From: Phycisphaerae bacterium
GTDB lineage: Bacteria; Planctomycetota; Phycisphaerae; Phycisphaerales; SM1A02
DNA length: 64,000 nt
NCBI GenBank assembly: GCA_002862305.1
Contig: PKCS01000039.1
Location: forward strand, 62,001-126,000
Direction: 5' to 3'
The notes below the pieces were generated by a model. That model saw only the letters and a list, made by a program, of their open reading frames with translations. It did not search any database and was not told the origin of the DNA. The position numbers and the translations under genes were made by a program. Every line of letters starts with the position of its first letter. Position 1 is the stretch's first letter. This document shows, piece after piece, positions 60,045 through 63,006 of the stretch.

Positions 60045-60242
60045 ACGACTCGCGTCCCCCGCATGGACCGGCTGGGACGTCTGCGCCGCCCCGTACTCCG
60101 GCAATCCGACCCGCTTGCCCGCTTGCGGCCTGCACCCGCTGATCCGATTCATACGCTGTTCCCGGCGAGCGTTCCGGGGTCGATCGTCTCGAACGGTTCG
60201 CTTCCGTGCACTCGCGGAAGCCGGTCCCCGGGGGAGCTTCCC

Positions 60243-60935
60243 GTGCATGGTCTTCATTCACACCTGGGTTCGCTGGTCGTCTCCCTGTGCCGGGCCGGGG
60301 CGCTCCTCGCCCTGCTGCAGCTGGTGGCCTGGGTCGCGAACTTCGCGGAGCGCGCCGGCAGCGACGAAGCTGCCGCCCCCGACCGAACGGTCGCGGGCAT
60401 CGCCTACCTGCATGCGGTGGGGGAGCCGGGGCTCGACGCGATCCTGGGGCTGGACGTTCCCGCGACCGGTGTTCGGGAGGCATCGTCCACGGTCCTCATC
60501 CGATTCGCCAGGGAGTTCGGTCGCGTCATGTTCTGGGGGGTGGTGCTGCTGCTGCTGCCGCTCGGGTTGGTGCTGGGGGTCGGCGCCCCCTTCCTGCTCC
60601 CCCGCGGGGAGGCGCAGCGGATGCTCTTCGGCACGGTCGCCCTGCTGGGGGTGCTTCCCCTCGTCCGGTCTGAAACCATGCCCACCCCCTGGCGGGCGGG
60701 TGCGCTGCCCGCGATGCCCGAGTCCCTGCTCGCGGGGGCCGCGGTCCCGTTGGTCGCCCTGATCCTCCTCGCCTCCGCCTCGGTGCTCTTCGACCTGCGG
60801 CGTCACCGGGATCCCGATCCCCCGAGGGACCACGGTCCCGCGGGCGGGCTCTCCTCCAGCGACGTCCGCGCGATCATCCGGCGCGGGGAGCCGTCCCGGG
60901 TCAGGTCCAGCCGATCGCGTAGAACAGTGCGGTGA
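60243..60935 (+). CDS. Membrane protein of unknown function
   Basis: 230 residues from a GTG with GGAG 5 nt upstream. Hydrophobic segments: LVVSLCRAGALLALLQLVAWV, VMFWGVVLLLLPLGLVLGVGAPFLL, LFGTVALLGVLPLV and LLAGAAVPLVALILLASASVLF. The frame stays open upstream to 60063, but that part is low in coding character. Its 3' end overlaps mlaE by 35 bp on the opposite strand. Confidence 0.6.
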   Translation: MHGLHSHLGSLVVSLCRAGALLALLQLVAWVANFAERAGSDEAAAPDRTVAGIAYLHAVGEPGLDAILGLDVPATGVREASSTVLIRFAREFGRVMFWGVVLLLLPLGLVLGVGAPFLLPRGEAQRMLFGTVALLGVLPLVRSETMPTPWRAGALPAMPESLLAGAAVPLVALILLASASVLFDLRRHRDPDPPRDHGPAGGLSSSDVRAIIRRGEPSRVRSSRSRRTVR

Positions 60936-61722
60936 ATCCGAGGTCGCAGAAGATCACGACCACGATGGTCTGCACCACCGTCTGGGTGGTGGCCTGCCCC
61001 ACCCCCGCGGCTCCGCCACTGACCTTCAGGCCGTTGCGGCAGGCGATCAGGCCCAGGATGAGCCCGAAGACCGCGGCCTTGATCAACCCGGTCATGAAGT
61101 CGCCGACCACCAGCTGGGACAGGGTGTTGTCCTTGTAGACCTCGAACGGGATGTCGAGGAACACCACTCCCACGAATCCCCCCGCGAACACGGCGCAGAG
61201 GTCACCGAGCACGGTCAGGAGCACCAGGCTGACGGCGGTGGCGATCAGCCTGGGGATCACCAGGAAGCGGATCGGATTCAGCGCCATCGACTCCAGGGCC
61301 TCGATCTCCTCGTTGACGACCATGGTGCCGATCTCCGCCGCGATCGAGGCTCCCGCGAAGCCGGTCAGGACCACCGCCGCGATCAGGGGGCCCAGTTCGC
61401 GGAGCACCGCGACGCCCACCAGGTTCGCGACCTTGTCCACCTGGCCGAACTGCTGCAGGCTCGGTGCGGTCTGGAGTGCGAGGATGAATCCGATGCAGCC
61501 GCTGACCAGGGAGACGATCGCGATCGACTTGACCCCCACCCGGACCATCTGGGAGACGATCGCGCTCCGGCCGATGCGGATCTTCCTCAGGACGATCGCG
61601 CGATAGAGCCACTTCAGTGCGTCCAGCAGCAGCCACACCAGGCTGCCCAGGTACTCGTTGATCTCGTTCCAGGCCCTGCCGGTGCCGATCACGATCTTCT
61701 GGATGGGACGAAGCGCTTCCAC
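60901..61722 (-). CDS. mlaE: MlaE-family lipid transport permease
   Basis: 273 residues with five to six helices. The core LRELGPLIAAVVLTGFAGASIAAEIGTMVVNEEIEALESMALNPIRFL is the MlaE/YrbE signature. MlaE is the inner-membrane part of the Mla phospholipid transporter and its MCE relatives. The ATPase MlaF and the MCE protein MlaD are not nearby. It follows the STAS gene by 4 nt. Confidence 0.9.
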   Translation of the reverse strand: MEALRPIQKIVIGTGRAWNEINEYLGSLVWLLLDALKWLYRAIVLRKIRIGRSAIVSQMVRVGVKSIAIVSLVSGCIGFILALQTAPSLQQFGQVDKVANLVGVAVLRELGPLIAAVVLTGFAGASIAAEIGTMVVNEEIEALESMALNPIRFLVIPRLIATAVSLVLLTVLGDLCAVFAGGFVGVVFLDIPFEVYKDNTLSQLVVGDFMTGLIKAAVFGLILGLIACRNGLKVSGGAAGVGQATTQTVVQTIVVVIFCDLGFTALFYAIGWT

Positions 61723-61726
61723 GGAT

Positions 61727-62074
61727 TCAGAGTTCCTTGGCGGCCGTCAGGTCCTCGGCGATCTTGAAGACGGTATCCAGCCTCGCGATCTCGAAGATGG
61801 ACTTGACCCGGTCCTGCATCCCGGCGAGGACCAGGGTCGCGCCGGCCTGGTTCGCCAGCTGCATCCCCTCGACCAGGGTGGCCACCCCGGAGGAGTCCAT
61901 GTAGGGGACCTCGCTCAGGTCGATGACCAGCCTGGCGGGTGGATCGGAGAACACCTCCGCGATCCTGGCCCGCAGCTCGGGAGCGCCGCTGAGGTCGACG
62001 TCCCCCGACGGCTTGAGGACCGTCGTGCCATCCGAGTTCTCGATCGTGATCGGGAGGTTCTCTTCCGCTGTCAT
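61727..62074 (-). CDS. STAS-domain protein (anti-sigma antagonist / MlaB-like)
   Basis: 115 residues, one STAS domain with GDVDLSGAPELRARI and the phosphorylatable YMDSSGVATLVEG (S61/S62). The serine marks it as a target of an RsbW-type kinase, unlike E. coli MlaB, which has Thr-Gly-Gly there. It lies between the kinase and MlaE and may control that permease. Confidence 0.88.
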   Translation of the reverse strand: MTAEENLPITIENSDGTTVLKPSGDVDLSGAPELRARIAEVFSDPPARLVIDLSEVPYMDSSGVATLVEGMQLANQAGATLVLAGMQDRVKSIFEIARLDTVFKIAEDLTAAKEL

Positions 62075-62089
62075 CGCTTGACCACCTGT

Positions 62090-62566
62090 CTAGGTTTCCT
62101 GCGTCGAGGAAGGGAGGCTGGAGCCGTCCGGCCTCCCAGGATTCACGTACTTCTCCATTATGACCCGCATGCCCTGCGACTGCTGGCGCTTCTCGAACCG
62201 GCAGTCGTCCATGATCTCCCGCATGATATGGACTCCCAGGCCTCCCGGTCGGACGTCCTCGAGGTCGCGGCCCTGGATCAGCTCGGGGTCGACCTGCTCC
62301 GCCTCGTCCTCGATCATGATCCGGATGCCCTTGGCCTCGCCCTGCAGGACCCAGATCGACATGTGGATCGGTTCCTCCTCGCGGTGCTCGTACCCGTGGC
62401 GGATGATGTTGGCCAGCGCCTCGTCGATCGCCAGCGCGATGTGGCCGCAGGCATTCTCGTCGAACCCGACCCGCTGGGTGAGGCTGAGGACCATGCCGCG
62501 GACGCTGGAGAGCAGCCGTGGCTTGCTGCGAAGCTGGATGGTCAGGTCTGGAGGGGTCTCGCTCAT
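62090..62566 (-). CDS. RsbW-like serine kinase (HATPase)
   Basis: 158 residues, GHKL ATPase fold with N box IALAIDEALANIIRHGYE (about 43-60), G1 region IEDEAEQVD and G2 PGGLGVHIMREIMD. It should phosphorylate the adjacent STAS protein. The ATG overlaps the TGA of the upstream lipoprotein gene (ATGA). Confidence 0.88.
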   Translation of the reverse strand: MSETPPDLTIQLRSKPRLLSSVRGMVLSLTQRVGFDENACGHIALAIDEALANIIRHGYEHREEEPIHMSIWVLQGEAKGIRIMIEDEAEQVDPELIQGRDLEDVRPGGLGVHIMREIMDDCRFEKRQQSQGMRVIMEKYVNPGRPDGSSLPSSTQET

Positions 62567-63006
62567 CCCTTCGCGTCCTCCCCGGGGGAGGGCGATCCGG
62601 TCTGGGCAGGGGGGACGACCCGTATTCGGTCGGATCCGTTGCTGGTCAGGGCGTACTCGCGCCACTCGAGCACCGACCTGAATCGAACCTCGGGGGGATC
62701 GAAGAACCGGTAGCCGAAGTCCTTTCCGGTCAGCTGGATCAGCCCGTTGATGGCCATGAACCGCACCATCGAGTCATCCGCGAGCAGGAGCGAGACCATC
62801 TGCTTGAGGTCCGACCGCTGGAGGACCCCGTCCGACTCCGCGGCCTCGACGGTGACCTTGATCGCATGGGTGCGTGCTGCCGGAGCCGGCGAGTCGAAGC
62901 CGCCCCGGGTGATCGAGGGCGCGGTGCAGGATGACGCGGCGACCAGCCCGCCGAGGCAGGCCGTCGACAGCAGGAGGCGTCGGATGATCGGTGCGGTCGG
63001 CCTCAT
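62563..63006 (-). CDS. Putative lipoprotein
   Basis: 147 residues. Signal peptide [18 protein letters not shown] followed by Cys, a lipobox-like end with Ala at -3, slightly off consensus. The rest ([24 protein letters not shown]) has no known domain. First gene of the unit with kinase, STAS protein and MlaE. Confidence 0.7.

Follow-up and report, generated by a model that had tools for sequence, protein, structure and literature searches.

The lipid ABC transporters of the MlaFEDB type described in E. coli, Acinetobacter and Pseudomonas combine the permease MlaE, the ATPase MlaF, an MCE protein and a small STAS protein, MlaB, with a serine or threonine at the position of MlaB Thr52. In E. 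coli this residue lies near the centre of the interface with MlaF and the phosphomimetic T52E substitution lowers MlaF binding (PMC7367683), and T52A abolishes ATPase activity with the complex left intact (PMC5016091). Phosphorylation of MlaB at Thr52 was proposed for E. coli in two eLife papers of 2016 and 2020 (PMC5016091, PMC7367683), the second of which notes the lack of experimental evidence for it, and MlaB has been called sparsely distributed in a survey that used NF033618 in synteny (PMC10665443). A search of the literature in open-licence PMC papers turned up none in which a kinase is described for the STAS subunit of an Mla system. The other closely comparable systems are the partner switches RsbU/RsbV/RsbW and SpoIIE/SpoIIAA/SpoIIAB, which consist of a HATPase_c_2 kinase, a STAS substrate with a DSSG motif and a PP2C phosphatase.

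Components of both kinds of system are found side by side in the window analysed here, a stretch of 64,000 nucleotides from a 2.67-Mb draft genome that has MAGs of Phycisphaerales, among them Planctomycetes bacterium TMED75, as its closest named relatives. The cluster comprises four genes, given here in their order of reading.

62563-63006, minus strand: lipoprotein of 147 aa with lipobox cysteine C27, the first gene of the cluster
62090-62566, minus strand: RsbW/SpoIIAB-like serine protein kinase of 158 aa (Pfam HATPase_c_2, E=2.8e-25)
61727-62074, minus strand: STAS protein of 115 aa (Pfam STAS, E=6.4e-22)
60901-61722, minus strand: MlaE-family permease of 273 aa (PF02405, E=5.3e-68)

The spacing between successive genes is -4, 15 and 4 nt and the closely packed unit of the preliminary description is real. 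The kinase gene likely begins with the ATG at 62566 and thus shares 4 nt with the end of the lipoprotein gene; the longer open reading frame from a GTG (62665) is a mechanical extension. The flanking genes are unrelated to the cluster, with a divergent GMP synthase upstream and genes for a metallophosphoesterase and for DprA beyond the other end. An open reading frame on the plus strand (60063-60935) is convergent with MlaE and overlaps its end; it has hydrophobic stretches and no Pfam match and possibly encodes a membrane protein that starts later.

We read the cluster, with a probability of roughly three in four, as one half of a phospho-controlled lipid ABC transporter of the Mla/MCE type, namely the half that contains the regulatory proteins and the permease. 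This reading is based on gene content, conservation, linkage, phylogeny, the conservation of the motif and active site, and two operons in relatives that include a phosphatase. In comparison with MlaFEDB there is a dedicated kinase in the operon, joined in some relatives by a phosphatase, together with an added HEAT-like lipoprotein and an RsbV-like STAS protein.

Within Phycisphaerales the kinase and STAS genes lie directly upstream of MlaE in 112 of the 125 readable loci that have the window's type of MlaE. This count is made up of the 30 nearest loci, 17 loci mainly from other families, 80 upstream regions and 4 further loci, less exclusions, two regions truncated at contig ends and three loci with a more distant type of MlaE being left out. 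The order kinase-STAS-MlaE is kept in 30/30 of the nearest loci checked, most of which also have the lipoprotein, and the pair sits directly upstream of MlaE in all 17 loci drawn mainly from other families, which represent 16 new genomes as one of them (L050) repeats genome G033. An MlaE match is present in 196 of the 201 genomes of the order when the second type of MlaE is counted too. Among the 13 exceptions the kinase is lost in eight (L097, L098, L298, L304, L310, L351, L353 and L354) and the kinase-STAS pair is found elsewhere in the genome in five (L095 and L376-L379). In the former group the kinase has been lost and not moved, because all eight genomes have only weak matches to it elsewhere (best match E 3e-9 to 8e-20), and the persistence of STAS with MlaE in these loci argues that STAS is part of the transporter. 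The three loci with the more distant MlaE (L373, L374 and L375) have a STAS gene upstream with VDSSALG or VDSGALG and no kinase, and two of them also have the HEAT-like lipoprotein.

The same linkage is seen when the kinase is taken as the starting point, where STAS and MlaE follow the kinase for 72 of the 80 nearest kinases of named genomes, two of the other eight being cut by contig ends. Across 294 Planctomycetota genomes MlaE lies within 3 kb on the same strand for 41 of the best 45 kinase matches (E up to 2e-30), and for one further match of these 45, in G264, MlaF adjoins STAS. This neighbourhood survey supports the phospho-controlled lipid transport suggested from the sequence alone and overturns the contrary possibility, that kinase and STAS occur without MlaE in most relatives, since it showed the reverse. 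Two loci (L093 in G027 and L094 in G047) have a close Mla-type kinase that neither STAS nor MlaE adjoins, and their genomes are without a close MlaE of the window's type.

Profile matches of the kinase include RsbW (6m36, E=3e-18) and SpoIIAB (1til), and its N-box (E49...N53), which is invariant in 23 homologues, aligns to that of both. Unlike the kinases of the Rsb and SpoII switches it scores below the RsbW/SpoIIAB equivalog cut-offs (62.0/145, 50.1/155 and 43.8/135 bits) and belongs to a clade of its own. The Mla-linked kinases all fall into this one clade in a tree of 57 kinases (support 97/89), where Mla linkage as a label requires a single change; RsbW-like kinases that have only SpoIIE phosphatases beside them lie outside it.

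That the kinase and STAS protein are most like RsbW/SpoIIAB and RsbV/SpoIIAA respectively is what would be expected of an ordinary RsbW-RsbV sigma-factor switch, controlling for example envelope stress transcription, with the permease merely co-transcribed. We consider this unlikely as the kinase clade tracks Mla genes across many families, STAS stays beside MlaE after loss of the kinase and no sigma factor was found by Pfam among the scanned neighbours in the window. In contrast with the Rsb and SpoII switches, the conserved neighbour here is a lipid ABC transporter.

The window's STAS protein carries YMDSSG (Y58-M59-D60-S61-S62-G63), invariant in a 23-row alignment, in agreement with the MDSSG motif first noted in it. 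S61 is at the canonical phospho-serine position, that is the first serine of the motif, corresponding to S58 of SpoIIAA and S56 of RsbV. Serine or threonine is present at this position in nearly every readable motif of a kinase-linked STAS protein, with threonine in a minority. By sequence the protein is nearer to sigma-factor antagonists (RsbV-like) than to MlaB and it scores 31.7 bits against NF033618 (MlaB), far under the cut-off of 90. We infer that it is MlaB-like by role, and its score below the cut-off of the model used in the survey suggests that MlaB-like subunits are under-counted. We also considered whether loss of the phospho-serine tracks loss of the kinase. The first two kinase-less loci had altered motifs (LSSPG and MDSAG), each retaining the canonical first serine, and the idea was rejected as DSSG is intact in 5/8 of the kinase-less loci. 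The serine does not follow the presence or absence of the kinase, so the phosphosite receives no independent proof from this pattern.

The nearest solved relatives of the window's MlaE in a PDB profile search are the MlaE subunits of MlaFEDB complexes (E=1e-45). There are two MlaE genes in the genome and in a tree of MlaE proteins the window's copy groups with the operon MlaEs, with the second remote from them. The preliminary description had MlaF and MlaD absent nearby, which is correct for the window but not for the genome, where copies are present on other contigs. In other families and classes both genes directly follow MlaE, and their absence from the neighbourhood of the window cluster probably reflects relocation, a difference from MlaFEDB that is shared within Phycisphaerales. 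As the ATPase partner, MlaF1 on contig C26, where it adjoins MlaD, was rejected in favour of the copy on C16 (MlaF2, G000:C16:22615-23514) by phylogeny and co-occurrence. In the MlaF tree the MlaF2 of the order groups with the MlaFs of the operons, apart from MlaF1 (100/100), and five genomes whose single MlaE is kinase-linked (G012, G164, G068, G033 and G019) have MlaF2 but no MlaF1. An MCE-type gene follows MlaF2 in most genomes examined but not in the window genome, in which the MCE proteins are encoded on other contigs than the cluster. These include a protein with two MCE domains (G000:C30; L005, L007) and two tandem MCE-like proteins (G000:C23; L008). The tandem proteins are possible MCE partners for the MlaE of the window; L008:1888-3174, the likely partner, scores below the PF02470 cut-off.

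Outside Phycisphaerales, kinase and STAS adjoin MlaE or MlaF in at least 12 further Planctomycetota families, and the best-resolved loci read kinase-STAS-MlaE-MlaF-MlaD. The cluster runs on into MlaF and an MCE protein in L099, L100, L104, L107, L109, L111, L119, L121 and L123, of which L121 belongs to the window's order but has a second arrangement. PF02470 is above cut-off in L104, L107, L109 and L111 and just below it in L100. A long MCE-like open reading frame directly follows MlaE in five loci of family f45 (L101, L103, L105, L106 and L108); PF02470 was not detected in that of L101, the one tested. The lipoprotein is kept upstream of the kinase both inside and outside the order.

Two of these operons also contain a phosphatase. 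That of L109 is a SpoIIE phosphatase (E=1.2e-36) whose gene precedes the kinase by 23 nt, and that of L123 is an FHA-GAF-SpoIIE phosphatase (E=2.6e-41) encoded at the head of the operon. Each of the two operons thereby encodes a complete set of PP2C phosphatase, kinase, STAS, MlaE, MlaF and MlaD (MCE protein). There is no phosphatase in the window's own cluster, and the four SpoIIE proteins of the window genome are all unlinked to it. An FHA-SpoIIE protein (G000:C6, L091) is a candidate phosphatase of this genome because its relative in L157 (34% identity over 519 aa) is encoded about 3 kb downstream of MlaE. Further SpoIIE genes are found a few kb downstream of kinase-STAS-MlaE in L143, L162, L185, L196 and L209, the FHA-SpoIIE domain layout being that of L157, the only one of these downstream genes scanned. 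It is possible that the downstream genes, that of L157 among them, encode the cognate phosphatase.

The phosphatases bear on a further explanation, in which STAS acts constitutively as an MlaB-like assembly subunit and the kinase chaperones or sequesters it without phosphorylating it. E. coli MlaB works without a known kinase and most of the kinase-less loci retain DSSG, both of which fit such an arrangement. It is nevertheless improbable given that the ATP-site residues of the kinase are invariant and that two operons include a PP2C phosphatase, an enzyme that requires a substrate in phosphorylated form. Chance adjacency in a gene-dense genome, for which the compact spacing and nothing beyond it speaks, is already refuted by the survey, with the same order in well over 100 genomes and linkage in at least 12 families beyond the order.

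Under the phospho-control reading, STAS as an MlaB-like subunit would bind the ATPase MlaF and so permit assembly of MlaFE(D) and ATP hydrolysis. The RsbW-like kinase would phosphorylate S61 of STAS, on the face that would meet MlaF, and by analogy with Thr52 of E. coli MlaB this would release MlaF and stop transport, which a SpoIIE/PP2C phosphatase would restore. Published work on SpoIIAA and MlaB suggests, again by analogy, that the kinase and MlaF would bind to one and the same face of STAS and hence compete. The genes for the ATPase and the MCE protein of this system would have moved elsewhere in the genome in the lineage to which the window belongs. Phosphorylation, its direction, its target and the transported substrate are all parts of the scheme that we infer.

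Several observations weigh against the phospho-control reading, namely the closer likeness of the STAS sequence to sigma-factor antagonists, the intact motif in loci that have lost the kinase, the window cluster having no phosphatase of its own and the two loci that keep the kinase apart from STAS and MlaE. The joining of a switch module to an Mla-type transporter is itself real and widely conserved and, as far as our searches show, undescribed. More broadly, we think it fairly probable that across Planctomycetota a partner switch of PP2C phosphatase, kinase and STAS has MlaEFD and not a sigma factor as its output and provides post-translational control of the traffic of envelope lipids. If this is true, partner switching gains a transporter as output. 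Beside STAS and the transporter the operon offers a kinase as a natural candidate, with a phosphatase as well in relatives, which makes the question of MlaB phosphorylation directly testable.

The lipoprotein is predicted to be exported and is therefore not expected to contact the kinase directly. Its AlphaFold model has an all-helical core, and a fold search with this model gave weak HEAT/Armadillo-like matches only, none with E<0.001. Among 22 homologues of the lipoprotein the lipobox cysteine C27 is invariant and 17 have a HEAT_2 match.
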